A stretch of 27,641 nt of DNA from a virus (IMGVR_UViG_3300042691_019276:1-27641), one strand, 5' to 3'; positions 9,769 through 27,641 are shown, numbered from the stretch's first letter. Numbers and translations: made by a program. The notes: generated by a model not told the origin, from the letters alone.

Positions 9769-9795
9769 TTACCCCTGCGGTATTAGCGGGGGTAA
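9769..9795 (+). terminator. Hairpin terminator after the capsid gene
   Basis: TTACCCCTGC (9769-9778) pairs with GCGGGGGTAA (9786-9795) over 10 bp with one G-T (G-U) pair around a 7-base loop (GGTATTA). An AATTACCC segment and a T run (AATTTTTAAATTATATTTT) follow. It begins 17 bases after the capsid stop. A second GGTAA..TTACC pairing overlaps it, so alternative folds are possible. Confidence 0.7.
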
Positions 9796-9832
9796 AATTA
9801 CCCATTAATAAATTTTTAAATTATATTTTATC

Positions 9833-10597
9833 ATGGCAAAAACAGAAACAAAACCCCAATCAACTTGGGAAATCAAAACCAGAACTTATTTATTAAAAGG
9901 ACAAGACAACCCATTAACATTTACTGTCTCATCCAGACACTCTCGTAGATACCCATTATTATGGTTTGATCGCGAAACGGGAGAACAAAAAGAACTACGA
10001 TACGCAACTAACCAAGCATCTCCATTTGTTCAAGACCAAAAAGGAGAGGTTACTCTAGGCCACATTGTATTTAGAGACGGCGTATTGACTGTACCGGAAG
10101 AACAACAAAATCTTCAAAAATTATTATCATTATATCATCCGTTGCTAGGCAAAAAATATTATGAATTTGATGCGGTAATGGAGGCGGAAGATGAATTAGA
10201 TGATTTAGATTTGCAACTTACTGCAATGAATGCGGCTCAGACAATGGATGTTGACCAAGCTGAAGCAATCTTAAGAACCGAACAAGGATCTAAAGTATCG
10301 AAAATGACATCTAAAGAAATTAAAAGAGACTTGCTTTTGTTTGCTAGAAACAATCCGGCATTATTCATAAGCCTTGCGGAAGATGAGAATATCCAATTAA
10401 GGAACTTTGCAATTAAAGCATGTGAACTAAACATCATAAAACTATCCCAAGATCAACGGGATTTTAAATGGGCGGCTAATGGCAAGAAGTTAATGACAGT
10501 GCCATTTGATGAAAACCCCTACTCGGCATTTGCTGCATATCTAAAAACAGATGAGGGCGTTGAAGTCTATAAGTCCATAGAGAAAAAAATGGAATAA
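9833..10597 (+). CDS. Conserved capsid-module protein of unknown function, 254 residues
   Basis: The gene stands alone between two hairpins, starting at ATG 9833 after a leader ending TATATTTTATC. Residues 10-115 form a beta-rich domain (TRTYLLKGQDNPLTFTVSSR, RYPLLWFDRETGEQKELRYATNQASPFV, GHIVFRDGVLTVPEEQQNLQKLLSLYHPL). Residues 115-135 are an acidic hinge (EAEDELDDLDLQ). The rest is helical (REIKRDLLLFARNN-type helices) and ends DEGVEVYKSIEKKME. I recall similar proteins beside capsid genes of environmental phages, without an assigned function. A ring, head-completion or vertex protein would suit the place, but no motif supports a choice. It is clearly a genuine gene. Confidence 0.75.
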   Translation: MAKTETKPQSTWEIKTRTYLLKGQDNPLTFTVSSRHSRRYPLLWFDRETGEQKELRYATNQASPFVQDQKGEVTLGHIVFRDGVLTVPEEQQNLQKLLSLYHPLLGKKYYEFDAVMEAEDELDDLDLQLTAMNAAQTMDVDQAEAILRTEQGSKVSKMTSKEIKRDLLLFARNNPALFISLAEDENIQLRNFAIKACELNIIKLSQDQRDFKWAANGKKLMTVPFDENPYSAFAAYLKTDEGVEVYKSIEKKME

Positions 10598-10608
10598 CAC
10601 GTAATACT

Positions 10609-10645
10609 AATATTAGGCGGTAGCTCAGGTTACCGCCTTAATATT
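10609..10645 (+). terminator. Long hairpin terminator after the 254-residue gene
   Basis: AATATTAGGCGGTA (10609-10622) pairs with TACCGCCTTAATATT (10631-10645), a 14-bp stem with one bulged T around an 8-base loop. Because the arms carry A/T runs on both sides, it can act in both directions. It begins 11 bases after the stop and lies 16 bases before the next ATG. Confidence 0.75.
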
Positions 10646-10661
10646 ATAATAAGAATATACA

Positions 10662-11363
10662 ATGGCAATAAACGTAGATACAGTTTACAAAACAGTCTTA
10701 TTAATACTTAATAAAGAGCAACGCGGGTATATGACCCCGGATGAATTTAATAAGACAGCGGCTCAAGTGCAACTTGAAATATTTGAGACCTATTTTGATG
10801 ATCTTAATCAACAATTAAGAGTGCCAGATAACGACAGTGAATATGCTGATCGTCAAAAAAGCTTGCAGGAAAAACTATCAGTATTTCATAGTGTTGGGAA
10901 TTGTGTATATGACGCACCATACTTTGACGTACCAGTTGATTCAGCTGGCTTTTATAAATTAGGCACAGTAATATATAATGATGAAAAAGAGGTCCAATAC
11001 GTGCAGCCTAATGAGTTATTGGAGCTTAACTTGTCACCATTAACAAAACCTACAGAATACTATCCGGTGTATAAGTATAAAGACTTTAAAATATATGTTT
11101 ACCCAACCTCGATAGTAAGTAATATAACTGCTACATATTTGCGAAAGCCATTAGATCCAATTTGGGATTTTACCGCTACTCCTCCATACTATCAATATAT
11201 ATACAACTCTGGCACGTCGGTTGATTTTGAACTTCATCCTACCGAACAAGTGAACGTAATTACAAAAATATTGCTTTATTCAGGTGTGATAATAAAAGAC
11301 CCACAAATTATACAAGTTGCAGCGCAGCAAATACAAGCGGAAAATATAAATTCAAAAAGCTAA
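10662..11363 (+). CDS. Head-tail connector / ring-like structural protein, 233 residues
   Basis: The start is the ATG at 10662 after AATAAGAATATACA. The N-terminal third is helical (VYKTVLLILNKEQRGYMTPDEF) with AQVQLEIFETYFDDLNQQLR. The middle is beta-rich with a DVPVDSAGFYKLGTVIYNDEKEV segment and TEYYPVYKYKDFKIYVYP. It ends in a helix (AAQQIQAENINSK). The NKEQRGYMTP-DEFN signature is one I associate with proteins found after capsid genes of crAss-like phages; the family is expected to build a ring between portal and tail. It probably sits in the collar, equivalent in position to adaptor proteins such as T7 gp11. This rests on position and sequence recall, not on a fold match. Confidence 0.7.
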   Translation: MAINVDTVYKTVLLILNKEQRGYMTPDEFNKTAAQVQLEIFETYFDDLNQQLRVPDNDSEYADRQKSLQEKLSVFHSVGNCVYDAPYFDVPVDSAGFYKLGTVIYNDEKEVQYVQPNELLELNLSPLTKPTEYYPVYKYKDFKIYVYPTSIVSNITATYLRKPLDPIWDFTATPPYYQYIYNSGTSVDFELHPTEQVNVITKILLYSGVIIKDPQIIQVAAQQIQAENINSKS

Positions 11364-11369
11364 TAAAAT

Positions 11370-12584
11370 ATGGCATTTCCAAACGGAGGTTTAATAACCG
11401 AAACAAATAGACAATACTACGAAGGCGCTCAGGGCTTTCAAGTAATGGACCCCGGTGGTCAGGATGTGTTTGTATTTACTTTTGACACAGATATAATATT
11501 TGGCGGTTGGGATCCAAATGATCCAGACTATGCCTTAAATAATTTTAAACTGTACTATAGTGCTGATGGGCTAAACTATTCTGAAATACTAACGCAATAT
11601 TCTGTAAATTATAAAACCGTAACTTTAGCTACGCCTTTAGATCAAGGGGAGGTTATAGTTATGCAACTAAAAAGAGCGGACGGTGGTAACTACGGAGATA
11701 GAGATGCATATGGCGCTACTGTAGAAGAAAACTATGGCGGGTATTCTTATATATCACTAAACGATATTATCAATAATTTTATGGTTGCATATGTTGGAAC
11801 TGGAAAAATTATTGGCAATGCTAAAAGAACCGATGTTATATTTCACGCAAAACGAGCGCTACAGGAATTTAGTTATGACACATTAAAAAGCGTAAAAGCA
11901 CAAGAATTATCTGTTCCAACAAACTTATCCATTCCTTTGCCGCAAGATTATGTTAACTATGTGAAACTATCCTGGATTGATAAATCCGGGGTTAAACATA
12001 TAATATATCCGACCAGGCTAACAAGCAATCCGTCTGAGTTGCCAATACAAGATTCACGTGGAGTTGCAATACAAAGTAGTTACGACGATAATATACAATC
12101 AACCTCTTTAATTGAAGAAAGATGGAATGCTACTAACTTAAATGCCGAAATAGCTGATTCAATGTATTCATTTTCAGAAGGATGGTCCGGTTATGACTGG
12201 GGAGCCGGCGGGTTTTATGGTAGACAATACGGCCTTGATCCGCAATATTCTAATTACAACGGAACATTTACAATTAATGAAAGAGAAGGTAAATTAAACT
12301 TTTCAAGTGATTTAGTTGGGTTAGTTGTTTTGTTTGAATATATATCAGATGGGCTAGCATATGAATTAGACTCAAGAGTTCCAAAGTTAGCAGAAGACGC
12401 AGCATATGCTTATATTTTACATGCAATTATTTCTACCCGCGCAAATCAACCAGAGTATCTTGTTAGGAGATTACGTGATGAAAAAAGCGCTAAATTAAGA
12501 AACGCAAAAATAAGATTGTCTAATATTAAGTTAGAAGAGATCACTCAAGTAATGAGAGGCAAATCTAAATGGATTAAACACTAA
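11370..12584 (+). CDS. Tail tube / tail-stabilisation-like protein (second connector), 404 residues
   Basis: The ATG at 11370 comes 6 bases after the previous stop. Residues about 1-130 are a beta-rich N-terminal domain (QDVFVFTFDTDIIFGGWDPN ... YSVNYKTVTLATPL), not expected in a minimal connector. Residues about 150-400 hold the signature TDVIFHAKRALQEFSYDTLK followed by VPTNLSIPLPQDYVNYVKLSW, which I recognise from the 'tail stabilisation / P22 gp4-like' family of crAss-like phages. A C-terminal helix carries RRLRDEKSAKLRNAKIRL. It would join the ring proteins to the muzzle in the short tail. The next gene starts two bases after the stop. Confidence 0.75.
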   Translation: MAFPNGGLITETNRQYYEGAQGFQVMDPGGQDVFVFTFDTDIIFGGWDPNDPDYALNNFKLYYSADGLNYSEILTQYSVNYKTVTLATPLDQGEVIVMQLKRADGGNYGDRDAYGATVEENYGGYSYISLNDIINNFMVAYVGTGKIIGNAKRTDVIFHAKRALQEFSYDTLKSVKAQELSVPTNLSIPLPQDYVNYVKLSWIDKSGVKHIIYPTRLTSNPSELPIQDSRGVAIQSSYDDNIQSTSLIEERWNATNLNAEIADSMYSFSEGWSGYDWGAGGFYGRQYGLDPQYSNYNGTFTINEREGKLNFSSDLVGLVVLFEYISDGLAYELDSRVPKLAEDAAYAYILHAIISTRANQPEYLVRRLRDEKSAKLRNAKIRLSNIKLEEITQVMRGKSKWIKH

Positions 12585-12586
12585 TT

Positions 12587-15500
12587 ATGGCTGAAATAAA
12601 GAATACCTTCTTAAGAGGTAAAATGAATAAAGACCTAGACAGTAGACTAATACAGAATGGAGAATATAGGGACGCCTTAAATATATCGGTTGGTAAATCT
12701 GAAAATCAAAGCGTAGGCTCAGCGCAGAATATTTTGGGTAACAAGCAATTAGTTAAACCTACTGGAGCAGGAACCGCGCCTTTTGAATCAAATGAAAACT
12801 TAGTATGCATAGGTCAATTTGTTGATAATGATAACAATAGGCTATTTCAATTATTAACAGACTATACGGACCCAGATCCATTAAGCATAAATTTGCCTAG
12901 CGAAGATTACGAGATGAAGATAACTCTATATGATCCTTCAAATACGGGTAACCCATATACAGTTCTATTATCTGGTGCTTTCTTGAATTTTTCTACAACG
13001 AATTTAGTAACAGGTATTAACCTGGTAGAAAATTTATTGTTTTGGACAGACAATAGAAATCAACCGCGAAAAATAAATGTTAATAAAGCGTTGTTGAACT
13101 CCGCTAGCTCAGTGAACCCGTATTATGTACTTGCGGATCAAATATCAGTTGCTAAATATGCTCCATTTAAAAGCCCTATATTGTATAAGGTTTTAGATGT
13201 AATAGCGCCGGTGTTTAGTTCTACGTTTTCAACGAATGAAGGTCAAACTCTTTTAATATTTTCATCGAGCCAATTAGAAACAGTTGGTTTGGAAGTTGGA
13301 GATCAATTGATTGATAATGGACTGGGCATAGATACGTCGGATTTTGCAGTTGTTACATATATATCTCCGTCGTCTGGCGGATATAATAATGTGTATATAA
13401 GCGGACAATATACAATATCCAGTGGTTACGATTTGACTTTTCGCAGAACAACAATGAAAAACAACGCATCAGCGTCTACATATTCTGGAGAGGAAAATTT
13501 TTTAAAGGATAAGTTTGTTAGATTTAGTTATAGATTTAGGTTTGATGACAATGAATATTCATTGATGGCACCATTCACGCAGCCAGCTTTTATACCAACT
13601 CAAAAAGGTTATTTTATAAACGGCGATGAGGATGCGGCATATAGGTCTACAGTAGTGAGTTTCATGGAGAACAATGTTAATGAAATTACATTAATGATTG
13701 AGTTGCCAGAGGCAGGTGATAACTTATTTAACTTATATAAAATACGAAGCATTGACATCCTATACAAAGAGTCCGATTCTTTGTCAGTAAAAGTAATAGA
13801 GACGATAGATATAGATACAATAGAGCAAGAAGTTCCTTCGTCTAATTTGTATTATTATAAGTATAATTCTCAAAAGCCATATAAAACACTGCAAGAAGCG
13901 GAGACCACTAGGGTTTATGATAAAACACCCGTTAGAGCTTTAGCTCAAGACGTTTCTGGCAATAGAGTTATATATGGAAATTATATAAATCAAAACACGC
14001 CTCCGGAAAGTTTAGATTACAATGTGTCCGCTATACAGAAAAATGACCTATATGAAAGTTGGCTTGAGTATCCAAATCATACTTTAAAACAAAATAGAAC
14101 ATACCAAGTAGGGGTTGTTTTGGCTGATAAGTTTGGCAGACAATCCTCTGTTATATTATCATCAGCTTTGCCGTATGTTAATACAGGTGGGTTTATATAT
14201 GGATCATCATCTATATATGTGCCTTACAAAAATGATGATTGGACTACCTCTGTAAAAGATTGGCTAGGTGACACCCTAGCTTTAACTTTTAATACAACTA
14301 TAAATTCAAACAAAAACTCGGCCGATGGTACACCTGGGCTATATGCTACACCTATTTCAAAAACAAATACAATTGGCTTTTCTATAATATCCGCAAGTAT
14401 ATATTATAATGACGATCCATTGGTAGAAAGTGTTGGGTGGAAATATATTTATTATGAAGATACCACTCCAGGTATTGATTCTATAATCCCCGCCGAAGGC
14501 AACTGGCTGCGTGGTCAATATACAGATTATGTTGAAATACTAAACGTAGAACCTCTACTTGGTTCTGGTTATAAGTTAACTACATCCGGTAGAGTAAATG
14601 AAATATATGAGTATAATCCAGCCAATACGCCTGACTTAAAGTTTTGTTATAACTTAAATGAACTAGGATGGTATTCTTATAAGATAGTTGTTAAACAGCA
14701 GCAACAAGAATATTATAATGTTTATGTACCCGGCATGCTAGCAGGGTATCCTGTATGGCAAACAAACGGCACGGGCAATCCAACACAGTTTCCAACAGGA
14801 GAGTCAGAAGTTACATGCCATTTTGTTTCTATAAATGATAATATAAATAAAGTGCCTCGCGACTTGTCAGAGGTTGGCCCAAACCAAACGCAGTATAGAA
14901 GCAGTGTTAAGCTCTGGGGTAGAGTTGAAAATCAAATTCAATTTGAAGCTAGTAGCGGTAATTACTTTGCGGCAAACAAGCAATATTACCCAACAACAAC
15001 ACCTGATACCGTATCTACAATAGCGCCTTCTAATGACTTAGGTTTTTTAGAGCAAAATACCACAATAAATCCAGTAGGGTCTGCTTATTTTAATATTTAT
15101 CAATTAGAAACATCACCTTTAATAAATAGGGTTTCAACAAGTAAAAAAATCGGGGTAGTTGGAAACACAGCCTCTGGTCCAACCATACCAACAATAGGAA
15201 CTGGCATGAGTCCATTTTTAGGTGTGTATGAAACTGCTCCTGTTACAACAGCGCTTGATTTATTCTGGGAAACGTCTACTACTGGATACATTTCCGATTT
15301 AAACGCAGACATATTAACAGGATCAGATGCTATAATTGGATATACAAATTTAGGCTTTGAATTTAATGAGGATCAGGATTATGATGGCCCGGGCAATACA
15401 ACTGGAGCCTCTAATTCTCCATGGATTACGGAATGGTTTGATTTTGTAAATAAGTCTGGAGCCATTGTTAACTCTATAGACAGTATAGTTTTTTCAGCCG

Positions 15501-16750
15501 CAAATAGAGATGGGCAAAACTTAACCTCTTCTTTTGAACTTGTTAGAGAAACAAATATAAGTGACCCTAATTATTTGAAATACAGAATAAAAATATTGAA
15601 TAGTAATTTTTATTATGGAACAAATTTTGCAACATATGGAAGTTTTATATTTACTTTTCAAATAACTCATACGGTTTTAAGCACAACATATAATCCCATT
15701 ATAAGTACGGTTTCTGAGGTATTGCAAATATCAAACGCTTATCCAATTGTAACTAGCCCAAGCGCAAATGTTACGCCTGTGTATAATTTAACTAATGCTC
15801 CATTGATTGGACCAATCATAGATGTTATTGGTAAAAATGGCAGCTTTAGTACTGTGCCATCCGACTATCTTTCTGATTTGTACTGGATGTATGATCCAAT
15901 TGGGCCATCATATTATGGTTATTTTAGTGTAAATTCGTCAACTGGGGATGTTAGTGTAACAAATAGCAATATACCAATTGGAGTTTATGATCTAAGATTA
16001 AAACTACAAGACGCAAGCACAAGCTTAGGACTACAATCCTTTGGCGGATTATCAAGTTACAGAACAGTTAGACTTCAGGTTCCAGATACCAGTGTTGGAT
16101 GCGCCTCGTGGACAAGTGTATCTACAGATAGTGGATCAGGTACAACTTGGTCTAATATGACAAGCGGATATATAAATGTATGGAAAATGCTAAGAGCCGG
16201 TGAAACAATAATTGAATCCACCGTTAAATTAAGCGGGTGGGTTCAATATTTTACGTCGACTAGTTATGCAGCTTCAGTGCCTGTTAGTTTTACAAATGGA
16301 GAACCATATGGTTATTTCAACGCGGGATTATTTAATAATAATGAATTTTCAGCAAGGCAAGCCGCCCAAACATTATATTTTACTGGCAATATAATTACGT
16401 CAAGTGGTAGGTCAATAGATATAAATTATGGCTCTAATCAAACCAACGTAACAACTGAAATTAACATACAATCATCTGGATGTACTGCGGGTGTACCAAC
16501 AGGGTATATACCTTCAACTTGCAGGGAATGGACTATTTATAATAATTCTAGTTTCCCAATACCTTTTAACGGGCTACATGGGAACGGAAGAGCTATAATA
16601 GGAGGCGTAATAGAGCCTGGGCAATATGCTAAGAGCACAGGAGAAGGAGGAACTTACCCTGTAGCTAGATATTTAAGCTTACAAGCCGCAGGAACTGGGA
16701 CTATAGGTGGAGTAATAACATATACAGGCGCTGTTACATGCCCTCTGTAA
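12587..16750 (+). CDS. Very large tail protein, muzzle/nozzle-like with C-terminal adhesin-like domains, 1387 residues
   Basis: The start is the ATG at 12587. Residues 1-60 hold a signature (NTFLRGKMNKDLDSRL then NGEYRDALNISVGKSEN) typical of the large 'muzzle' or stabilisation proteins of crAss-like phages, functionally like T7 gp12. Residues about 60-520 look like a beta-propeller core with SIDILYKESDSLSVKV, then TRVYDKTPVRALAQDVSGNR and LKQNRTYQVGVVLADKFGRQ, all highly conserved in that family as I recall. Residues about 1050-1168 resemble a cadherin-like Ig domain (YFSVNSSTGDVSV then VYDLRLKLQD). The last 230 residues are Ser/Thr/Gly-rich with Cys pairs and a domain starting SGCTAGVPTGYI, followed by CREWTIYNN, typical of variable adhesins. 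It is secreted into no membrane: no signal peptide. It ends TAA TAA. Confidence 0.82.
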   Translation: MAEIKNTFLRGKMNKDLDSRLIQNGEYRDALNISVGKSENQSVGSAQNILGNKQLVKPTGAGTAPFESNENLVCIGQFVDNDNNRLFQLLTDYTDPDPLSINLPSEDYEMKITLYDPSNTGNPYTVLLSGAFLNFSTTNLVTGINLVENLLFWTDNRNQPRKINVNKALLNSASSVNPYYVLADQISVAKYAPFKSPILYKVLDVIAPVFSSTFSTNEGQTLLIFSSSQLETVGLEVGDQLIDNGLGIDTSDFAVVTYISPSSGGYNNVYISGQYTISSGYDLTFRRTTMKNNASASTYSGEENFLKDKFVRFSYRFRFDDNEYSLMAPFTQPAFIPTQKGYFINGDEDAAYRSTVVSFMENNVNEITLMIELPEAGDNLFNLYKIRSIDILYKESDSLSVKVIETIDIDTIEQEVPSSNLYYYKYNSQKPYKTLQEAETTRVYDKTPVRALAQDVSGNRVIYGNYINQNTPPESLDYNVSAIQKNDLYESWLEYPNHTLKQNRTYQVGVVLADKFGRQSSVILSSALPYVNTGGFIYGSSSIYVPYKNDDWTTSVKDWLGDTLALTFNTTINSNKNSADGTPGLYATPISKTNTIGFSIISASIYYNDDPLVESVGWKYIYYEDTTPGIDSIIPAEGNWLRGQYTDYVEILNVEPLLGSGYKLTTSGRVNEIYEYNPANTPDLKFCYNLNELGWYSYKIVVKQQQQEYYNVYVPGMLAGYPVWQTNGTGNPTQFPTGESEVTCHFVSINDNINKVPRDLSEVGPNQTQYRSSVKLWGRVENQIQFEASSGNYFAANKQYYPTTTPDTVSTIAPSNDLGFLEQNTTINPVGSAYFNIYQLETSPLINRVSTSKKIGVVGNTASGPTIPTIGTGMSPFLGVYETAPVTTALDLFWETSTTGYISDLNADILTGSDAIIGYTNLGFEFNEDQDYDGPGNTTGASNSPWITEWFDFVNKSGAIVNSIDSIVFSAANRDGQNLTSSFELVRETNISDPNYLKYRIKILNSNFYYGTNFATYGSFIFTFQITHTVLSTTYNPIISTVSEVLQISNAYPIVTSPSANVTPVYNLTNAPLIGPIIDVIGKNGSFSTVPSDYLSDLYWMYDPIGPSYYGYFSVNSSTGDVSVTNSNIPIGVYDLRLKLQDASTSLGLQSFGGLSSYRTVRLQVPDTSVGCASWTSVSTDSGSGTTWSNMTSGYINVWKMLRAGETIIESTVKLSGWVQYFTSTSYAASVPVSFTNGEPYGYFNAGLFNNNEFSARQAAQTLYFTGNIITSSGRSIDINYGSNQTNVTTEINIQSSGCTAGVPTGYIPSTCREWTIYNNSSFPIPFNGLHGNGRAIIGGVIEPGQYAKSTGEGGTYPVARYLSLQAAGTGTIGGVITYTGAVTCPL

Positions 16751-16779
16751 TAACCTAAAAAAATAAGTAATTATTAACT

Positions 16780-18486
16780 ATGGCAGCAACAATAGAAGTA
16801 AAATATTATAATTCATACTGGCTAAAAAAATTAAATTCTATTCAGCCAATAAAGCCTTACACCACTACCACTGCAGATTCATTAAAGTTTGATTTTGTAG
16901 CTGGGAACGATTATTTTACATTAACAGGAACTTACGTGGGCTGGCCAATTCCTTTTATTGGTCCAGGTCAAAAACTAACATATACATACCCGCCAACAGG
17001 CGTAGGTGCTACAACATATAGTTTTACAATAAGAGGCGTAGATGATACTTCCACCCCTAGGATATATATAGAAGGCGTAAACCCGGTTACATTTCAAGTT
17101 GATTCAACTATACTTCCATATGTGCCGCTTACTTTTGGTAAAATAATAAACTTTAGTTACGTACCCGGCTCTACGCAAGACACCCCAGCGTCTCCGCCTA
17201 CTTACGTAAATGGAATGAGATACAATTATAGTAACTCAGACGACTGGTATGTAGAAGAATCAAGAATAAGAGGCGGGTATAATAATGTATCCACCGATTA
17301 TGGCGTAAAGGCGTACATAGTCGAAGAATCGCCAAACCAACAAAATAGGTTTAGTTCTTTAATATACTCTGGGTTATTTAACTCCAGAACAGGCGTAAAC
17401 AATACAAATCAATTTTCAGTTGGAGAAGATATAACTAGAACAATTGATCCTTCCCAGGGCTCTATTCAAAAGTTATATGCTGAAGATACTAATTTAACAA
17501 TATTCCAAGAAACAAAGGTTAGCAGAGCTTTAATTGACAAAGACGCCGTATATTCAGCGGAGGGTCAGCCTTTAACAACATCGGGACGTGAGGTAATAGG
17601 CCAAGTGCAAGCTTATGCTGGTAATTACGGTATAAGTACAAACCCAGAAAGCTTTGCTACGTATGGTTATAGAAAATATTTTACAGACAGGAATCAAAAT
17701 GCCGTATTAAGACTTTCGCAAGATGGTATAACTGAAATATCTTCATATGGAATGCTTGATTATTTTAGAGACAGTTTTAGCGAAATAAGTTCTGATGGTA
17801 AAATAGTCGGTTCTTGGGACATGCACAATAAGCAATACGTGCTATCATTGCAACCTGCTCTTAGCATAGGGGCTTCACGGCCAGGCCAATCAGGGTATTT
17901 ACCGGAATTTAAAACATTAGCTTTTGACGAAGACTCAAATGGTTGGACCAGTAGATTTTCATTTAGACCCGATTCAGGTTTTAGTTTATTAGGTCAATAT
18001 TATACAACAGCAAAAGGTAATGTTTGGCAACATTATTCTACTGATTCTTTGTATTGCAATTTTTATGGTGAACAATATAATTCTAGTATTACACTAGTTT
18101 TTAATCGTGACCCTTCTGTATCTAAAAACTTTCAAACTATAAATTACGAAGGATCGCCAGGCTGGGCGTTGACCAGCATTGAAACAGATTTTAATCAAGG
18201 TGTTCCAATTACTTCGGCTACAATGTCATACGGATTAGCCGCTTTGGAAAATCAATTATTCTTAAATAATTTCAAATCAAAAGAAAATAAGTACTTTGGT
18301 AACATCTTGAATATAACAAACGCTTCAGAGGGGGTAATTGCATACGGCCAGTCCATGTCCGGAATTGTAGGATTTTATGGGGTTGGCACATTTACTTTTC
18401 CTGACGAATCAATACAAAATGTTACATATAATAATCAAGCGGTATTATTCGCGGCCTCTACCGGTTATATAAATTCATCGTACTAA
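16780..18486 (+). CDS. Second tail protein, resembling the distal half of a muzzle protein, 568 residues
   Basis: The start is the ATG at 16780, 29 bases after the 1387-residue gene and in a different frame. After a short N-terminal strand (YYNSYWLKKLNSIQPI) and an Ig-like segment with YVGWPIPFIGP, residues about 150-470 carry DDWYVEESRIRGGYNN, IYSGLFNSRTGVNNTNQFS, QGSIQKLYAEDTNLTIFQ and ETKVSRALIDKDAVYSAEG, then YGYRKYFTDRNQNAVLRLS. I recall these motifs together in the C-terminal part of large crAss-like tail proteins, so the two genes here may be two pieces of one ancestral protein. The rest is Gly/Ser/Tyr-rich. Its stop codon overlaps the cupin gene start (TAATG). Function: tail-tip or muzzle component, inferred. 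Confidence 0.78.
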   Translation: MAATIEVKYYNSYWLKKLNSIQPIKPYTTTTADSLKFDFVAGNDYFTLTGTYVGWPIPFIGPGQKLTYTYPPTGVGATTYSFTIRGVDDTSTPRIYIEGVNPVTFQVDSTILPYVPLTFGKIINFSYVPGSTQDTPASPPTYVNGMRYNYSNSDDWYVEESRIRGGYNNVSTDYGVKAYIVEESPNQQNRFSSLIYSGLFNSRTGVNNTNQFSVGEDITRTIDPSQGSIQKLYAEDTNLTIFQETKVSRALIDKDAVYSAEGQPLTTSGREVIGQVQAYAGNYGISTNPESFATYGYRKYFTDRNQNAVLRLSQDGITEISSYGMLDYFRDSFSEISSDGKIVGSWDMHNKQYVLSLQPALSIGASRPGQSGYLPEFKTLAFDEDSNGWTSRFSFRPDSGFSLLGQYYTTAKGNVWQHYSTDSLYCNFYGEQYNSSITLVFNRDPSVSKNFQTINYEGSPGWALTSIETDFNQGVPITSATMSYGLAALENQLFLNNFKSKENKYFGNILNITNASEGVIAYGQSMSGIVGFYGVGTFTFPDESIQNVTYNNQAVLFAASTGYINSSY

Positions 18487-18968
18487 TGACAAATGAAATT
18501 CAATTAAATAAAGAAAAAGAATTAATAGCAAAGGAGTTTATTGATAAGGTAACAAATTTAGAAACTTTTTTATTAAACAGCGATCTGCCCGGTATTGAAA
18601 AGTTTGAAAACGGTATTTCTGAATCGTTTCCTTTAACTCATTCATTTTCTGACGGGGTATATGTTAGAGAAATGTTTATACCAGCAGGAAGTTTTATGAT
18701 TGGTAAGATACACAAGTTCAGTCATACTGTGTTTTTATTAAAAGGAAAAATACTTGTTGCTACAGAAAATGGAGTGGTATGCCATACTGCTCCATGCTAT
18801 ATTAGTTCGCCGGCAGGGGTAAAAAGAGCGGTCCATACATTAGAAGACACTATTTGGGTAAATGTGCATGCAAACCCAGAAAACACTACGGATATAAAAA
18901 CATTGGAAAATAATCTAGTATGTTCATCATATAAAGCTTATGATGAATATAAACTTTTAAATAAATAA
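18486..18968 (+). CDS. Cupin-like protein, 160 residues
   Basis: The ATG at 18486 overlaps the previous TAA by one base. The predicted core strands match a cupin (double-stranded beta-helix): GVYVREMFIPAGSFMIG, then GKIHKFSHTVFLLKGKI with His76 and His80 as candidate metal ligands, then VCHTAPCYISSPAGVKRAVH and a strand WVNVHANPEN. The H-x-x-x-H plus the GSFMIGKIHK turn is the motif-1 region of the cupin. Such cupins lie in structural modules of many environmental phages and are sometimes virion proteins. The enzymatic activity is unknown; two well-placed histidines keep metal binding possible. Substrate cannot be inferred. Confidence 0.72.
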   Translation: MTNEIQLNKEKELIAKEFIDKVTNLETFLLNSDLPGIEKFENGISESFPLTHSFSDGVYVREMFIPAGSFMIGKIHKFSHTVFLLKGKILVATENGVVCHTAPCYISSPAGVKRAVHTLEDTIWVNVHANPENTTDIKTLENNLVCSSYKAYDEYKLLNK

Positions 18969-18971
18969 GAT

Positions 18972-19895
18972 ATGAGTTTTGGAGCAGTAGCAATAGCCTC
19001 AGCGGGGATCGGTGTATTAGGCAGCGTGGCAACAGGTATAATGGCTCAAAATGCAGCAGATGGTCAAAGACGTGCTTCCGCTGCAGAAAGAGCTAGACTA
19101 GATGCAGAGATAAGAGCCTTTGAAAATAGCAGACAAGCTATAATAAACCCATATGCCAACTTTAAAGACATAAGTGGTTTAGCAACAGATTTATCAAGCA
19201 TGATAAGCAATCCTTACGCTAATTTAGGCGTAGCCACGCAAGCAGCTAAATTTGAGGCCGAGCAGATTGACCTATCACTAGCAAATACATTAGATACACT
19301 ACGCGAGACTGGATCAAGCGCTGGAGGTGCCACAGCGTTAGCTATGGCTGCGTTAAAAAGCAAGCAAGGTATATCTGCTAACATTGAGCAGCAAGAAGCT
19401 CAGAATGAGAAATTAAGAGCTCAGGGCGAACAACAGTTGCAACAATTGAAAATGGCAGAAGCGCAAAGAATACAAACTATAAAAATGAGCGAAGCGCAAA
19501 GAATGCAACAAGCAGAGGCTTCTGGTAAACAATTTGTATTCCAAAGTCAAGAAGAAAGAGATAGAGCTAAATTAAACAGGTTAGCTGGGTTATCAGATTT
19601 TGCGGCTCAACAAGAGGCACAAGCGCAGTCCGATAGCATGTCCGCAATGACTGGTATGATTGGCGGAATAACTGGAGCGTTGGGCACTGCGGCTAATATT
19701 TATGCGGCAGGTCAACAACCACAAACAAATACCACAATTAATTATCTTGACACCGGCAAGTTAACTGCCGCAGGTATGACTAGCATTGGAGGATCACTGC
19801 CCGGCGTAGCGTCTCCTTTACCAACAATACGCAACCAAGCGCCGTCAGGATATATAGAACCCTTCGAAAGTAATAATTCTTTTTATCCAAGGTAA
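18972..19895 (+). CDS. Probable internal virion (ejection) protein, 307 residues
   Basis: The ATG at 18972 follows the cupin stop by three bases. Residues 4-25 (AVAIASAGIGVLGSVATGIM) and about 227-248 (MSAMTGMIGGITGALGTAAN) are Gly/Ala-rich hydrophobic helices. Between them lie long charged, Gln/Glu/Ala-rich helices, including an 11-residue tandem repeat (KMAEAQRIQTI / KMSEAQRMQQA). This layout, a membrane-active helix at each end of a coiled coil, resembles T7 gp14 and similar proteins ejected into the host envelope to form a channel. The protein has no signal peptide. The resemblance is in architecture, not demonstrated sequence homology. It begins the internal-protein block. Confidence 0.65.
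   Translation: MSFGAVAIASAGIGVLGSVATGIMAQNAADGQRRASAAERARLDAEIRAFENSRQAIINPYANFKDISGLATDLSSMISNPYANLGVATQAAKFEAEQIDLSLANTLDTLRETGSSAGGATALAMAALKSKQGISANIEQQEAQNEKLRAQGEQQLQQLKMAEAQRIQTIKMSEAQRMQQAEASGKQFVFQSQEERDRAKLNRLAGLSDFAAQQEAQAQSDSMSAMTGMIGGITGALGTAANIYAAGQQPQTNTTINYLDTGKLTAAGMTSIGGSLPGVASPLPTIRNQAPSGYIEPFESNNSFYPR
19449..19514 (+). repeat. Two tandem 33-base repeats (11 codons each) within the 307-residue gene
   Basis: Units 19449-19481 and 19482-19514 encode KMAEAQRIQTI and KMSEAQRMQQA. They share GAAGCGCAAAGAAT in the same phase. The 11-residue period matches hendecad coiled coils, so the duplication would lengthen the helix without breaking it. Confidence 0.6.
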
Positions 19896-19907
19896 ATAAT
19901 AAAATTC

Positions 19908-19923
19908 ATTAATTATAATTAAT
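19908..19923. other. 16-base perfect A/T palindrome before the 486-residue gene
   Basis: ATTAATTATAATTAAT is its own reverse complement and lies in the short gap before the ATG at 19928. Being pure A/T it would form a weak stem, and such palindromes arise by chance in A/T-rich gaps. A protein-binding site is possible but unsupported. Confidence 0.3.
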
Positions 19924-19927
19924 AATA

Positions 19928-21388
19928 ATGTCATACGAAAATCCACAAAGACAAGTCATATCAACCGCTCCGGCTTTCCAAAATTTACAGCAAAATATAT
20001 CCTCGGCGGTAAATACAGCCGCGGCAGGGGCTATTGATTTAGCCAAAAGAACAAGTGACGATTTAAAAGAAAAGCAGAAACAATTAGAAGACTTATTTAC
20101 GAAAGCGCAAGCTGACGCTTCGGTGTGGGGTGGCTCACTAAAAACGGCTGAAACAAATAGTTCAATACCTGTTGATCTTTCTTTATGGAGTGCGCAAGGT
20201 AAAAAAGAATTGTTAATACAAAAAATGCGGATCACACCAGGATCTAGTCCCGAAGCAATAGCGGATGCTCAACAAAAAATTGAAAATATAAATGCCATCC
20301 CAGACAAAGCTACACAACTATTTGCGTGGGTAAAAGGGTATATTGACACAACTAGGGATGGACTTAAAAATAAAACTTTGTCTAGTTTAAGCATGACAAA
20401 TGACCCGGCAATGAAGGCGTTAGCCGCAGCGGCTAGCAATAACACAAATGCCGTTAAGTACAGCACGAAATTAGATGCAAACAATAATCCAATATTAGTA
20501 ATTAATGGGCATGAATTTAAGTATGACGATCTAAAGAGAGCGGATTTACAAGGCGGATTAGTAAAATTAATTCCCGACGTAAACTCCAACTTAGAATCTA
20601 CAAAGAAAAAAGCACCAAACGTATTTAATGTCATAACGACTAAAAACAAGGATGGTAAAAGCGTTTCAGAAACAGACGGCACTGTTACAAATACATTTTT
20701 AACAGGGGAACCTTACCTAAAAATCACCAGCGTTACAAAAACAGGTGGAAAAGTTACGGAAGAATCAGGTATTAGAGTTGTGAAAGTTAATAAGGAAGCA
20801 ATCGCAATGGATCCTACATTTATAGCTTCTACCAATGCAATAGCAAATGGCTTATTAGCTGATCCAGCAGACGCTTATTCCGCTAACAATGATAAAATGA
20901 AAGAGTTCCCAGATGCCGATATTAAGCCATTAAAACTGTGGAGTGAATGCAAAACACAACAAGAAAAAGATAATTGGCGAATTGATTTTATATCAAATTG
21001 GAAAAAATTTACATTAGCATCTATAAAAGATGAGCAGCCCATAAAAAACGAAGCTGGCAATTATGTTACAGAAACGCGACTTGCTCCAAAGGCAGATAAA
21101 GGTGGCGGTAACGGTGGCGGCAAGCCAACAGAGGGATCTATAAGCAGGGGTCAATTTAACACGAATATTTCATCATCTGAAACAACTCCAGTTTATTTCC
21201 CGTCCAGCACAAGGTTATCCGGTAGGCTACAATATGATGATGCTACACAAACATGGGGCTACTATACAAACCAAAGCGCTGGCACAGGAACTGAAAATTG
21301 GATGCTAGATCCCGCATTTGGAACATCAAAATCTAAGAAAGCATTAGCTAAAAAAATATACCCAGGTCTTTTTACAAATTTACCATAA
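19928..21388 (+). CDS. Probable internal virion protein of unknown function, 486 residues
   Basis: The ATG at 19928 follows an A/T leader. Residues 1-60 are helical and Ala/Gln-rich (NLQQNISSAVNTAAAGAIDL, then KEKQKQLEDLFTKAQAD). The centre (about 170-300) is mixed alpha/beta with Lys/Asp/Thr loops (TLSSLSMTNDPAMKAL, NPILVINGHEFKYDDLK) and ITSVTKTGGKVTEESGIRV strands. A Gly-rich linker (GGGNGGGKPTEG, about 393-404) precedes the C-terminal segment SSTRLSGRLQYDDATQTWGY. The order matches crAss-like cargo genes located between the 307-residue protein and a giant protein. There is no membrane span or enzyme motif. The stop TAA is 12 bases before the giant gene. I do not recognise its family. Confidence 0.6.
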   Translation: MSYENPQRQVISTAPAFQNLQQNISSAVNTAAAGAIDLAKRTSDDLKEKQKQLEDLFTKAQADASVWGGSLKTAETNSSIPVDLSLWSAQGKKELLIQKMRITPGSSPEAIADAQQKIENINAIPDKATQLFAWVKGYIDTTRDGLKNKTLSSLSMTNDPAMKALAAAASNNTNAVKYSTKLDANNNPILVINGHEFKYDDLKRADLQGGLVKLIPDVNSNLESTKKKAPNVFNVITTKNKDGKSVSETDGTVTNTFLTGEPYLKITSVTKTGGKVTEESGIRVVKVNKEAIAMDPTFIASTNAIANGLLADPADAYSANNDKMKEFPDADIKPLKLWSECKTQQEKDNWRIDFISNWKKFTLASIKDEQPIKNEAGNYVTETRLAPKADKGGGNGGGKPTEGSISRGQFNTNISSSETTPVYFPSSTRLSGRLQYDDATQTWGYYTNQSAGTGTENWMLDPAFGTSKSKKALAKKIYPGLFTNLP

Positions 21389-21400
21389 ATATAAATAAAT

Positions 21401-24400
21401 ATGAAATTATACGAGTACAATGGAGCTGAATTTTCAGAAGAAGATGTAATTGCTGCAGCTGAAGAAAAAGGTTTATCAACAGACGAATATATTAAGAAGT
21501 ATAATATAAAACCAATTGGCAGTGGCGAGCCGGGAAAGAAGAAGCCTGTTGCAGAAAAGGGTGCGCCTGCAACAGGGAAAACACAAAGTACGGCATCCAA
21601 GCCGGCAACTACTTCTTCGGTTTCCAAAAAGGTTAATCCTTGGGAAACCGCTGAGCAAGCAAAAAAGCGCGAAGCAACATTTGGAGTAGGAGCAATTGTA
21701 AAAACTCCTAAAAAAACAGAGCAAAGTTTGGGTCCTGGAACAGAATATAATTCCCAGGGTTATTTAGTCCCTAAAGAAAAAGAATTGTCTGTTTGGGAAA
21801 AATTAAAAACCGCGGCAAGCGAACTATTCCAAGACGACGAAACCGACACTAACGGTAAATTAATTTATGATGATCAAAAACCGGTAAAAGAACAAGCTGC
21901 CACATATAGAAAAGACGCGGTAGACGCTCTAAATGCCGTGGGTAAATATGCTTGGTTAAAAGATTATAATAAGGAAGATAGGTTAGAGTTTATATCAAAA
22001 TTGATACCTGCTCCAAAATATACAGAAAAAGTATATAACCAAGAAACAGATCAATTTGAAGTTAAGCCAAAGAAAGAGGTTGTTGACGATCTAAAAAAAC
22101 ATTTACCAAAAAATTTTGGCGAAATAAAAGACGCAAAGCAATTAAATCAAGCTATTGATATTGCTATTAAAAAGTTTGCAGACAATGATCCTACTATAAA
22201 ACTGCAAAAGGATATTGCTATTGAAAAATCAGTACCTATATTAAAAGAAAAGGTAAATGAACTGCAGCGTAAATATAATACAGCTACTCCAGATGGCTTA
22301 GCAAAGGCTACAGCTGAGTACAATGCATTTGCGCAGCAAGTTATAACTAACAATATAAACACGTCAAAAGCAGCTCGTGACATAGAAGCTGGGTTTGGCT
22401 ATGCCGCTCAAGTTGCAGCGGAAGATGTTAACTTGGCATTTGCTAGGGATAAGGACACATTTTTGTCAGCAATGGACGCGATTAGTGAGGTTGATCCATT
22501 GTCTGCTAGATTTATTGAAGCAGCAGGTAAAGGTACTTATAATTTAATACAAGCAGGTAGACAAACAGGAGTCAGTTCAGCGCATGGCCAAATCGCAGAC
22601 TTGAATGCTTTTTACAAAAGAGCATTAGAGGATCGTGGTGATAATGAAAAATTTGACATGCCTTCTATATGGAGCGAAAAAGTATCCGGAATAGAAGGAT
22701 ACGGTCAGCAAGAAGTTGCTTCTGGAACAGACACACCGAAAACATATGGAGAAGCTAAAAAAAGATTAAAGGCAGCAACAAATAAACTTAACGCGGATAT
22801 AATGCAATCCGTGAGCAAAATCGAAGAGGGCAAAAAATACTCAAATTTATTTAAGCAAGCAGATTTAAAAAACGGAGTGCAATTTAATGATATTGTCAGT
22901 TTAGTTGGTGAGCAAACTCCAAACTTATTAATAACAGGAGCTGGAGCCGTAACGGGCAATCCTTTATTAATTGGCATTGGAACCGCGTCTGCCTTCACTC
23001 AAGAATATGGTAATCAATATTATGATGCTGTAATAACAGGTCTTAAAAAAGACTTAAATAGGGAGCCTACAAAAGAGGAAATAGCCGCGGCGATTGGTGA
23101 TGGAAAATATGCGGATAAAGCAGAGGCCGTTGCATGGTCCACCTTGTCGTCAAGCTTAGAATTTGCATCTGAACTTAATATAGTTAAAAAGACAGCAAAA
23201 GCTCTAGGCATGGGCGGTGAAGCAAAAAATGCTTTGGGCAGCTTAATGCGCGGCGAAATAAAAGCTTTTGGCAAGTCTATGTACCAACAAGGAAAAGACG
23301 CCGGTATATCAGGTCTTGGTGAGTACTTAACGGAGGGTCTACAATCAGCTATATCTCAAGCTAGTGCTGGTACCCAGTTGAATGAAGGGGTTGCAAAGTA
23401 TATGGATGTTAATCAAATGCTAGAAGAAGCTCAAGGAGGAGGTGTTGTTGGTCTTGTATTGCCATTTGGCGGTACAGTTGCGCGCCAAACATTTATGGAG
23501 CTTAGAAACTCAGCAAGGCAAGTGGCTACTACATTTAATTTAAGCGGTCCGTTTGGAGATTTTAAACAAGCTAACTTATTTTTTAAGGCGGCTGAAGATA
23601 ATATTAATACTAGATTTGAAGCAGGCGAAATAACAGATAAAGAAAAAAACGCAGAGCTTGAGTCATTAAGAAACATTAGAAACACTGGATTAAAATTACC
23701 ATCTGATTTTACTAAGGAAGGTAAGCAAGCTGCATTTGATTTATTAATAGAAAAAAATAAATTAGAAACAGAAATACAAGGAAAAGACGCAGCATTAGTT
23801 GCTCCTCAAAAAGAAAGACTAAAAGATATTGATGGGCAGTTAACCGCAATTTCAATAGTTGAATCGCAAAAAAAGCGCGACACAGAGAATATGAGCGCTT
23901 TAGATCGCAATATATCAGCATTGGAAGGATACGCTAATACACTTGGTCAAACAGAGTTTGAAAATGCCGTTGGCGAAGGCAAAGGAGTTGAGTCATTTGA
24001 GACGGTTGATGATTTTAAAACCGCATTGGAAAACGCTGGTTACGATGAAAACTTCGTAAAAGGAGCTATGGAATCCGACGGGTTTATGCTTGATAATGGG
24101 CAAATCATAATTAACAAGCAAATTGCCGCGCAACGTAACCTACATACAATGGGTCACGAACTACTGCATAAAATTTTAAAATCTGAATTTAGCGATCCTG
24201 CGCGAGCTATTGAATTAAAAGATCAATTTTTAGCGCAATTATCCCCGGAAGAAAGAAAATTATTAGATGAGCGTATATTAGCTGTTGATGAAAACGCTGT
24301 TGTAGAGGGATTGCAAAAAGAATTAGGGAGAGAACCAAATGATGCTGAAATAAAACAAGCTATATCAGAAGGAAAAGGTAGATTATATTCGGATGAAGAT

Positions 24401-27400
24401 CTTGAAAAAGCTCCGGATGAATATCTTACGCAATATTTTCAAATTATAGCAGACAAAAAAATACCATGGTCTGAAAAATTAAAAGATTCCTTAGAGAATT
24501 TATGGAAAAATTTTCTTGGTAAGTTTTTTAAAGAGAAAGGCTATGATAAATTAGAATTTGCTGACGGTAAAGATATTTACAGATTTATTAATGACTATGC
24601 CAAGTCTATAAAATCAGGCAAATTATCACAAAGAGCGCAGGATTTAGCAAAAGCCGGAACGGGTGTAAAAAAAGTTTCTGTTCCTTCTAAATCAAATTTA
24701 CAAGGATTACTTACTGATAAATACGGTAATAATAAACGTAGATTTATATCAGAAGGGTTAATGACTACACCAAGCGGTAAAGAAACATTTGACTTTACTA
24801 AATCTGTTATTGGAGAAGAATTAGGCGGTCTTGTTGAAACCATAACAAGAAGATTGTATGATGGTATTCCTGCTGATTCAAAGAAAACTGTATCAAGGGA
24901 AGACTATAAGAACGCATTGATTTCCGCTGCTGCTACATTGATAGATAGAGAGTGGGATCCAACTAAGCAAGATCTTGATAAATTTGTTAGTAACCGTTTA
25001 AACCTTAGAGCAAACTCTTTAGCAAAAGAACTTGGTATTGAGGGTATTACGGAAGGCGGTATAAAAGCCGATGTTGATCAAGCAAAAAGTTTGATAGCTG
25101 AAGAAACAAAACAAGAAGTAAAAGAAAAGCCTAAATACAAAACAATATTAGAAAGCAAAGTATTTAGTGATGAAGTAGTTAACTCTGTGAAAGACAAACT
25201 CAGAAGGGAATTACGCACATTAAAAAGCAGAATAGACGAAGCTGTATCAATAAATAAAACAGTTACGCCGCTTATAGCAGAGATTAAAGACGCTATGGGT
25301 AAGCAAGCTGACATTGATATTAAAAAAGCATTAGGTGGAAAACCAAACGGCGAGTTTAGAAAAAATATTTTAAAGAATAAAAAAGCAATCCTTGAGAATA
25401 TGACCACTACGTGGTTGATGGGTAAAGACACTAAAAAAGGCGTTGAAGGAGGTATACCTGCGGCTATTCAAAAACAAGTAGACGGTAAATGGTTATCATA
25501 TCCAGATTGGGTTGGTAAGAAAATTGATCGCGAGAAAGTAACAACTAATCTTGCGGGCAAAACATCGGGCGCGGATATGGTTAGGAGGCTTCCTAACGCG
25601 GCAAATAATATTTCTGATGCTGACTTCTTATCATTCTTTTTGGAGCAAAATGGCGACCTTATACGAGGCCGTAAGGAATCATTGTCAAAAGCTATGGCAG
25701 AAGAATTGTCATTTGATATATTTAAACAAGGTTTAGAAGAGGGTAATGAAATCGCGGAAGCATTTGAAAAAAATCAAGAATTAAAAGATGTTGTTTTATT
25801 AGACACCTACGTTAACGAAGTTGCAAAACAATTAGATCGCGGAACTGTGAAATTTAGTAAAACTGTTATGAAGGTAGGGGATAGACAAATTACCATACCC
25901 GAAAGTTATAGAAATACAGCTGACGCGGCATTTAGACTTGTTAGCGGGGTTAACTCGCTTGTCAATGAAGTTCAAATGGTGGGTATTGAAAATATTTTTG
26001 ATTTTGAAACTAATTCTCTATTAGAACCCTATGCTAATGAATACGACAATTTTATTGGAGAATTTGTTGCTGCGTTGTATGAAGAGGGAAAGATTGACGA
26101 TAAGAAAGGTATTCAATTTAAACAAGCTATCTATAAAAATAAAACTATACCAGCCGAAATAAGAAAAGCTTTTAAAGAAGTTGGCAATTTAAGATACAAT
26201 AAAGCGGCTTTGGATGAGTTGGACGCGGCGGCGCATGAAATAAATAAAGCATTAGATCCAGCAATATTAAAAGTAATTGGATATGATTGGCTTGGATATA
26301 CTCATAGAGTAATGAATGCCGCTAAAGAAAGAGAAGATGGAACGCCTGGCGAATATTATGAGTCATTAAAAAGTTTAAAGCAAGGTGATACTGCAAAAGG
26401 TAAATTGCCTGCTGGTTTGATTATAGAGGATATTAGGTTGATGAATAAAAAGTTCCCTCTATTTAAAAAGATACAAAAAATTTTAGATGAAAATATTTCC
26501 GCAGAAGAAAAATTAGAAAAACTAAAACCTTTACAAGCAGAAATTGAAGCAGCTAATATTGCTAATATAAAGTTAGCAGTGCATTTAGGTACTGTAATCG
26601 GCAATTTATTAAAAGAAGGTAAGATAAGTTCTGTGGCTGCATTGAATTTAGCGCAAATACAAACTGGAATTGTTGCCGGGTGGAGAGCTTTATCAAGACT
26701 TGATCTTATAACAGTAAAGGATCGTTCGCAAAAACATGTAAAAGGCGATGATAGCCGCACGTCAAAAGGCGAGCATTTAGCGCCAAATTCTAATACCATG
26801 GAGGCTATGGTTAATGTTTGGTTTAAAGCCGCTCAAGATAATTCTATAAATATAGAGGCAGAGCTAAACAAAGTATTTTCAGAGCATTCGCAATGGCTAA
26901 CCGACGTTGCAACCACAAAAGCCGTTGACAAGGCAGGTGGCGCAAATAACGATAGCAACTTTTTTCGTGTAAAGTTTGCATCGAAGGAAGCTCAGGCACA
27001 AGTATATGGCATAGATGGAAGACCTTATATGGAAGTATTGGCTGACAATGAAGCAAGAAAAGCCGCAAATGAGGCGTTTGGCGAATTCAAAGCTGCCATA
27101 GAGCCAGAAATACAAAAAGACAAAACGTTTGACAAAGCAATGGCTAATGCAGCTAAGTTTTCTAAAACACCAAAGAAAATACGTGTATTTGATTTTGATG
27201 ATACGCTTGCGCAAACAAAGAGCAATGTATTATATACAATGCCAGGTGATCCTAAACAATACAAAATTGACGCTGCTACGTTTGCTAAAGAGGGTAAATT
27301 CTTAGAAGACGCCGGCGCTAAATGGGATTTTTCTGAATTTAGTAAAGTCATGAATGGTAAAAAAGGTCCATTATTTGAAGTAGCAAAAATTATCGCTGAT

Positions 27401-27641
27401 AAAAAAGGGACTAGTGACGTATTTGTATTAACTGCTAGACCAGCTAACTCAGCCGGGCCAATACAAGAGTTTCTTAAAAGCTTAGGTTTAGATATACCTG
27501 TTAAAAATATAACTGGACTTGGCAATAGTTCGCCTCAAGCAAAAGCTGATTGGATTGTAGAAAAAGCTGCAGAAGGTTATAATGACTTTTATTTTGCCGA
27601 TGATCACACTGGAAATGTTAAAGCTGTCAAAGATGCATTAA
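21401..27641 (+). CDS. Giant multi-domain virion protein with zinc-protease and HAD-phosphatase motifs (3' truncated)
   Basis: The frame is open from the ATG at 21401 to the window edge, 2080 codons without a stop. Residues 1-38 are a compact motif (MKLYEYNGAEFSEEDVIAAA), then a Lys/Pro/Thr linker to about 100. Residues about 505-540 and 680-692 (GGGVVGLVLPFGG) are hydrophobic Gly/Ala segments in a helical region (EYLTEGLQSAIS near 645), as in ejected channel proteins. H919-E-L-L-H923 is an HExxH zinc-protease motif, with E1007 (DEYLTQYF) a likely third ligand (gluzincin type). Residues 1334-1396 hold a conserved-looking block (TTTWLMGK, SYPDWVGKKIDRE, MVRR). From 1929 a HAD domain shows D1931-F-D1933-D-T1935, T2011 (VLTARP) and D2067-D2068 (FADDHTGN). 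It is probably packaged and injected; activities are predicted from motifs. Confidence 0.75.
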   Translation, partial: MKLYEYNGAEFSEEDVIAAAEEKGLSTDEYIKKYNIKPIGSGEPGKKKPVAEKGAPATGKTQSTASKPATTSSVSKKVNPWETAEQAKKREATFGVGAIVKTPKKTEQSLGPGTEYNSQGYLVPKEKELSVWEKLKTAASELFQDDETDTNGKLIYDDQKPVKEQAATYRKDAVDALNAVGKYAWLKDYNKEDRLEFISKLIPAPKYTEKVYNQETDQFEVKPKKEVVDDLKKHLPKNFGEIKDAKQLNQAIDIAIKKFADNDPTIKLQKDIAIEKSVPILKEKVNELQRKYNTATPDGLAKATAEYNAFAQQVITNNINTSKAARDIEAGFGYAAQVAAEDVNLAFARDKDTFLSAMDAISEVDPLSARFIEAAGKGTYNLIQAGRQTGVSSAHGQIADLNAFYKRALEDRGDNEKFDMPSIWSEKVSGIEGYGQQEVASGTDTPKTYGEAKKRLKAATNKLNADIMQSVSKIEEGKKYSNLFKQADLKNGVQFNDIVSLVGEQTPNLLITGAGAVTGNPLLIGIGTASAFTQEYGNQYYDAVITGLKKDLNREPTKEEIAAAIGDGKYADKAEAVAWSTLSSSLEFASELNIVKKTAKALGMGGEAKNALGSLMRGEIKAFGKSMYQQGKDAGISGLGEYLTEGLQSAISQASAGTQLNEGVAKYMDVNQMLEEAQGGGVVGLVLPFGGTVARQTFMELRNSARQVATTFNLSGPFGDFKQANLFFKAAEDNINTRFEAGEITDKEKNAELESLRNIRNTGLKLPSDFTKEGKQAAFDLLIEKNKLETEIQGKDAALVAPQKERLKDIDGQLTAISIVESQKKRDTENMSALDRNISALEGYANTLGQTEFENAVGEGKGVESFETVDDFKTALENAGYDENFVKGAMESDGFMLDNGQIIINKQIAAQRNLHTMGHELLHKILKSEFSDPARAIELKDQFLAQLSPEERKLLDERILAVDENAVVEGLQKELGREPNDAEIKQAISEGKGRLYSDEDLEKAPDEYLTQYFQIIADKKIPWSEKLKDSLENLWKNFLGKFFKEKGYDKLEFADGKDIYRFINDYAKSIKSGKLSQRAQDLAKAGTGVKKVSVPSKSNLQGLLTDKYGNNKRRFISEGLMTTPSGKETFDFTKSVIGEELGGLVETITRRLYDGIPADSKKTVSREDYKNALISAAATLIDREWDPTKQDLDKFVSNRLNLRANSLAKELGIEGITEGGIKADVDQAKSLIAEETKQEVKEKPKYKTILESKVFSDEVVNSVKDKLRRELRTLKSRIDEAVSINKTVTPLIAEIKDAMGKQADIDIKKALGGKPNGEFRKNILKNKKAILENMTTTWLMGKDTKKGVEGGIPAAIQKQVDGKWLSYPDWVGKKIDREKVTTNLAGKTSGADMVRRLPNAANNISDADFLSFFLEQNGDLIRGRKESLSKAMAEELSFDIFKQGLEEGNEIAEAFEKNQELKDVVLLDTYVNEVAKQLDRGTVKFSKTVMKVGDRQITIPESYRNTADAAFRLVSGVNSLVNEVQMVGIENIFDFETNSLLEPYANEYDNFIGEFVAALYEEGKIDDKKGIQFKQAIYKNKTIPAEIRKAFKEVGNLRYNKAALDELDAAAHEINKALDPAILKVIGYDWLGYTHRVMNAAKEREDGTPGEYYESLKSLKQGDTAKGKLPAGLIIEDIRLMNKKFPLFKKIQKILDENISAEEKLEKLKPLQAEIEAANIANIKLAVHLGTVIGNLLKEGKISSVAALNLAQIQTGIVAGWRALSRLDLITVKDRSQKHVKGDDSRTSKGEHLAPNSNTMEAMVNVWFKAAQDNSINIEAELNKVFSEHSQWLTDVATTKAVDKAGGANNDSNFFRVKFASKEAQAQVYGIDGRPYMEVLADNEARKAANEAFGEFKAAIEPEIQKDKTFDKAMANAAKFSKTPKKIRVFDFDDTLAQTKSNVLYTMPGDPKQYKIDAATFAKEGKFLEDAGAKWDFSEFSKVMNGKKGPLFEVAKIIADKKGTSDVFVLTARPANSAGPIQEFLKSLGLDIPVKNITGLGNSSPQAKADWIVEKAAEGYNDFYFADDHTGNVKAVKDAL

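Follow-up and report, generated by a model that had tools for sequence, protein, structure and literature searches.

What would a phage carry in its virion as a giant protein with no recognisable polymerase? The viral record IMGVR_UViG_3300042691_019276, whose entire 27,641 bases form the window analysed here, raises this question with its last open reading frame (ORF), which starts with ATG at 21401 on the plus strand, the strand of the parts of the giant and of the structural block before it, and continues for 2080 codons (21401..27640) with no stop before it runs off the contig end. Giant proteins that are ejected have been described chiefly in N4-like and crAss-like phages, as RNA polymerases. 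A sequence-only reading of the window had proposed a polyvalent, ejection-type chain fused to a zinc protease and a HAD phosphatase. We conclude, with a probability of about 0.7, that the giant is a virion-carried, ejected polyvalent protein of a Bacteroidota podovirus, which would act in the manner of the N4 virion RNA polymerase. The sequence-only reading is partly supported; a sigma-like module and a variability by insertion and loss, including degenerate zincins and a HAD remnant, lie beyond what it described.

The residues on which that reading was built (HELLH at 919–923, E1007, DFDDT at 1931–1935, T2011 and DD at 2067–2068) all stand where they had been placed, and the frame of at least 2080 codons is real. 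Because the window is the whole record and the ORF is open at its 3' end, the remainder of the gene is absent from the record. Complete relatives (n = 67) have ORFs of 2371–4686 aa (median 2986) that extend beyond the HAD domain, where a further module of about 700 aa is conserved at the C-terminus; the window giant therefore lacks its C-terminal part including this module, which the sequence-only reading had no means of seeing. Relatives were not found by tblastn of the giant against phage records or by a motif scan of IMG/VR. The first homologues came from terminase-bearing IMG/VR contigs and further ones from a HAD profile, which detected at least 563 IMG/VR stretches encoding the domain, 80 of which were fetched; architecture counts rest on the 78 HAD loci with enough upstream sequence. 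An HExxH motif lies upstream of the HAD domain in the same ORF in 73/78 loci, at a median distance of 1003 residues. As only 0.0036 HExxH are expected by chance per shuffled giant of the window's composition, the motif combination goes beyond chance.

The link to the virion is provided by the N-terminal part of the protein and by its genomic position. An ejection-protein scaffold was delimited at aa 324–850 (22370..23950), with a hydrophobic stretch in the hydropathy profile at aa 509–527. A hidden Markov model (HMM) of this pre-zincin region, built solely from IMG/VR giants, matched phi38:1 gp101 (4e-39), the elemo giant (9e-38), phi18:3 gp123 (3e-36), Gundel gp074 (8e-32) and phi13:2 gp127 (1e-30), and the controls (reversed, shuffled and unrelated structural proteins) remained at E >0.5. 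Among proteins of the Cellulophaga phages, phi18:3 gp123 and phi40:1 gp101 (the latter 99.9% identical to phi38:1 gp101) bear the GenBank annotation "experimental MS/MS proteomics analysis", i.e. tandem mass spectrometry (MS/MS). A packaging and structural block comprising terminase, portal and capsid/tail proteins (2447..21388, from PHROG matches and synteny) precedes the giant gene, which is thus placed as the last gene of the block; the records of elemo, phi13:2 and phi38:1 hold a giant annotated as structural at the equivalent position. Together, scaffold homology and position bear out the polyvalent ejection-type interpretation, and the N-terminal homology to MS/MS-detected virion proteins indirectly supports delivery of the giant with the phage DNA. 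No cultured homologue tested matched the HAD or sigma-module HMM. The giants and the cultured-phage proteins have the scaffold in common and differ in cargo. A Sigma70_r3 Pfam match at aa 546–565 was judged a chance hit since it falls within the scaffold and so outside the sigma-like module described below.

The first enzyme-like module is a predicted zincin (gluzincin-like) metallopeptidase domain at aa 863–1045 (23987..24535), with HELLH at 24155..24169 and E1007, the predicted third zinc ligand, at 24419..24421. E1007 is invariant in 82/82 aligned HExxH-bearing giants, as are H919, E920 and H923, and it was not used in selecting these sequences, whereas HExxH was. In an AlphaFold2 model of aa 834–1329 computed with 40 relatives, the zincin block reached a predicted local distance difference test (pLDDT) score of about 80–97 (means of 10). 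Strands at aa 863–866, 894–896 and 902–905 precede the HExxH helix (aa 916–930), and the conserved downstream Glu lies on a second helix (aa 1006–1017), the arrangement expected of a gluzincin. In Pfam scans of individual members, M91, M78, M61 and Zincin_1 ranked with the top families, at scores under the cut-offs. The zincin profile matched no zincin among PDB sequences, so the assignment rests on the Pfam tallies of single members, on the predicted fold and on E1007 being invariant. With a zincin HMM from which the test proteins were kept out, the elemo giant was significant (4e-13), Gundel marginal and MW202828.1 not significant. The domain fits the metallopeptidase of polyvalent proteins (PMC5512222), and the zinc protease proposed beforehand is upheld as a zincin with a conserved third-ligand Glu, which may be proteolytic.

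The HAD phosphatase domain occupies aa 1915–2080 (27143..27640; PHROG and Pfam) and is cut by the contig end just past motif IV. Motif I (DFDDT, 27191..27205), motif II (T2011 in LTAR, 27431..27433), the motif III lysine and motif IV (DD, 27599..27604) are all present. All 86/86 HAD copies agree at D1931, D1933, T1935, T2011, R2013, two lysines, D2067 and D2068. DFD[DE]T and, in part, the DD motif had served to select these copies; T2011 and R2013 had not. By its motifs the domain appears catalytically complete, and it may well be an active phosphatase. Its best PHROG match is PHROG 415, "polynucleotide kinase" (E 0.00065), and Pfam assigned DUF2608 to 5/6 members and HAD to 2/6, below the curated cut-off. 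In one relative (L100, P0005 aa 2408–2600), a zeta-toxin/PNK-like P-loop kinase is inserted after HAD motif I, which to judge from sequence is a natural kinase-phosphatase fusion inside a giant.

Between these two domains lies a helical module resembling region 2 of sigma-70 (aa 1130–1263; 24788..25189), identified from HMM, profile and fold matches. In relatives, a sigma-like segment can be read by eye about 200–350 aa past HExxH, e.g. "LLTDEIETGERGILDLIRAYDPESGVPLAAYINKFLPSRAIEASKRVL". The sigma-module HMM was positive in 61/78 HAD loci, and a version trained solely on relatives of below 30% identity recovered the window copy (aa 1153–1263) at E 2.5e-18. The best match of a PDB profile search with the module was a sigma factor (E 0.016), with another sigma factor in third place; sigma PHROGs came first in the PHROG tally, and Sigma70_r2 was the Pfam family matched by most members, although in only 2/30. 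An AlphaFold2 model of the module from one relative (L098) had a pLDDT of 80.6, and nearly all of its top 50 Foldseek matches in the PDB were sigma factors, with a best probability of 0.97 and a template modelling score, by target, of 0.64–0.66 to SigE domain 2. In the viral structural library, most named high-ranking matches were phage sigma factors, rank 1 being a 1475-aa uncharacterised viral protein. A Foldseek search with the two-domain model told little as a whole, its match of top probability being pro-sigmaK. In predicted fold, the module thus resembles region 2 of RNA-polymerase sigma factors and hardly anything else.

This module should not be equated with a sigma factor. Sigma70_r4 (region 4, which recognises the -35 element) gave no match in Pfam scans of the whole protein or the middle region, and the Trp dyad of region 2.3 was not seen in the module on inspection against E. 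coli sigmas; for these two reasons we do not class it as one. ECF (extracytoplasmic function) sigmas likewise have no Trp dyad. Of 16 related phage genomes, 11 encode stand-alone sigma-70 factors, each about 250 aa long (L200–L210). Descent of the module from them is unsupported, as an HMM of those factors fails to recognise it. Pfam scans yielded no polymerase match in the window giant or its relatives, and a PF00940 polymerase search of the 16 related genomes was silent, as were its controls. With a separate sigma-70 in 11/16 genomes and no phage-type polymerase found in a search whose control was silent, these phages probably rely on the host RNA polymerase, and this lends interest to a sigma-like module carried in the virion. 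Within the library searched and for the phrases used, the literature made no mention of a virion-associated or ejected sigma factor, an absence that is no proof of novelty.

Several observations weigh against the giant being an ejected polyvalent protein with active cargo. The virion evidence belongs to the homologues and not to the window protein itself; the MS/MS-detected homologues (phi18:3, phi38:1/phi40:1) have no HExxH and hence share the scaffold only. At least four relatives (L128, L130, L150 and L152) have a recognisable zincin module in which HExxH is replaced (e.g. LEELFH, IEEIFH, QEAGHFF), making them pseudoenzymes, so proteolysis is not required in all relatives. One relative of 2452 aa (L106, P0009 aa 1697–1759) has lost the HAD domain, whose last 60 residues are left as a scar. 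The HAD profile had no match among PDB sequences, and for that reason the polynucleotide kinase/phosphatase (PNKP)-type label of the sequence-only reading stays a lead, suggested by PHROG 415 and by the kinase insertion in one relative. For the sigma-like module, hhalign against five E. coli sigmas found the right register with only 13% probability, a second profile search ranked a dynein light chain (E 0.08) above sigma factors (E 0.19), and no single PDB Foldseek match had E <0.3. Foldseek values of this kind are what a small helical domain that has diverged would give, and the evidence lies in the consistency of the matches.

These weak sequence statistics leave some room for the sigma-like module being a convergent helical bundle, for instance a spacer or a membrane-spanning part, unrelated to RNA polymerase. 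Such a bundle would also account for the lack of a region 4 and of a Trp dyad as in real sigmas, and for the failure of the stand-alone phage sigma HMM to recognise the module. We regard convergence as less likely than not, since sequence, Pfam, PHROG and two structural libraries independently converge on sigma factors and the motif register is right. Less probable still, and in our view unlikely, is a purely structural virion protein, part of an internal core or tail tube, with enzyme-like modules that serve mostly assembly, a zincin for maturation or loading, and nothing that acts in the host. The structural annotation of the syntenic proteins of cultured phages, the phi18:3 and phi38:1 forms without HExxH and the degenerate zincins agree with a role of this kind, as does N4, in which the zincin-containing region is required for encapsidation and the protein is packaged uncut (PMC5512222). 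Against it, a HAD active site complete in 86/86 copies and a Glu at position 1007 in 82/82 argue for catalysis, and a P-loop kinase within one relative's HAD domain, together with a sigma-like module, is hard to account for by assembly alone. A misassembly or sequencing error that fused two genes can be dismissed: the ORF runs off the contig and its full length is not visible, but independent contigs by the dozen hold uninterrupted ORFs built in this way.

If the giant is indeed an ejected polyvalent protein, a few copies would ride in the virion and exit together with the DNA. The zincin might then cleave its own chain or a host protein, or might serve in loading, and the modules would act ahead of phage gene expression. 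The sigma-like module could dock onto the host RNA polymerase, steering or blocking it, and the HAD domain could strip phosphate from nucleic-acid ends or nucleotides. A more specific version, which we offer tentatively and consider possible rather than probable, is that a virion-borne sigma-like factor replaces the virion polymerase: ejected, and possibly released by the zincin, it would bind core RNA polymerase and redirect or block it before phage genes are expressed. The family is large and nearly unannotated (at least 563 HAD-bearing IMG/VR stretches), and combines a virion-proven scaffold with a conserved protease and phosphatase and a sigma-like module, with no polymerase recognised. 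If this module binds RNA polymerase, it would explain how phages that depend on the host polymerase take over transcription at entry. The question can be tested, since cultured phages of Cellulophaga and Flavobacterium have the scaffold too.

The rest of the giant is less readily interpreted, and whole-protein Pfam scans returned only sub-threshold chance matches. A conserved module follows the sigma-like module (aa 1264–1487; 25190..25861) and is part of a block 52% identical to L095 (P0002), the closest by terminase among giant-bearing relatives, whose 3323-aa protein has two blocks that are 52–63% identical to the window giant. Beyond it, the middle region (aa 1488–1914; 25862..27142) is poorly conserved, and the middle regions of 63 relatives matched no Pfam family. 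In L095 and in L101 (P0008), this region contains FEVKSG and TIETKVG, which by eye suggest PD-(D/E)xK nuclease cassettes. The A8 consensus shows EHxxP recurring between the sigma-like module and the HAD domain, in a region otherwise unrecognised. In the largest giant found (L160, 4686 aa), the middle region is longer, at about 1400 aa against the usual 600 or so.

The window terminase is 64% identical to that of the uncultured podovirus MW202828.1, 44% to that of the Flavobacterium phages elemo (Elemovirus) and 31–38% to those of Cellulophaga and Tenacibaculum phages of Pachyviridae/Pervagoviridae. By these identities the phage appears related to Elemovirus and to Pachyviridae/Pervagoviridae, which are phages of Flavobacteriia. 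Host inference via bacterial bins was abandoned, as the matches fell in bins of unrelated phyla and were probably mis-binned. Just ahead of the terminase block lies a gene for a GroES-like co-chaperonin (1616–2224); MW202828.1 and elemo encode both GroEL and GroES. Within the block, the adjacent ORFs 12587–16750 (1387 aa) and 16780–18486 (568 aa) match the start and end of PHROG 14478, a protein that in relatives is one chain of about 1400–1600 aa, so that the window version looks split into two genes.

Comparison with known systems places the individual modules and the whole. The sigma-like module resembles sigma-70 region 2 in predicted fold and motif register and differs from sigma-70 in being embedded in a virion-type giant. 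The HAD domain shares motifs I–IV with polynucleotide kinase/phosphatase HADs (PHROG 415) and Pfam DUF2608; unlike PNKP HADs it is embedded in a giant, with no kinase in the window. The Crassvirales virion RNA polymerase giants phi14:2 g065–g067 likewise close the structural block of a Cellulophaga podovirus and are MS/MS-proven, but none of the HMMs (zincin, sigma, HAD, C-terminal) matches them significantly. N4 gp50, the virion RNA polymerase of Schitoviridae, is alike in size (about 3000–3500 aa), in having one HExxH zincin-type region and a large C-terminal module, and in adjoining the structural genes; the N4 protein is ejected (PMC12633501). It differs in that homology is undetectable beyond a marginal zincin match (independent E-value 0.008), and in that the window giant has a HAD domain and a sigma-like module in place of a single-subunit polymerase, as far as a polymerase search with a silent control can tell. 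The proteins phi18:3 gp123, phi40:1/phi38:1 gp101, Gundel_1 gp074 and the elemo giant share scaffold homology and genomic position with it; the Tenacibaculum Gundel_1 protein also matches the C-terminal module (3e-11), and the Flavobacterium elemo giant the zincin HMM. Polyvalent phage proteins that bear zincins and are delivered at infection form a recognised class (Iyer et al. 2017, PMC5512222), in whose description neither "sigma" nor "phosphatase" occurs. The window giant shares with them a very long multidomain phage chain, a zincin and expected entry with the DNA, and has no Pfam match to the usual partner domains of the class. Its zincin, sigma-like and HAD modules lie in one uninterrupted ORF, an organisation repeated in relatives. 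We conclude that the giant probably belongs to the known class of polyvalent ejected phage proteins and is new as a variant, the surprising element being its sigma-like module.

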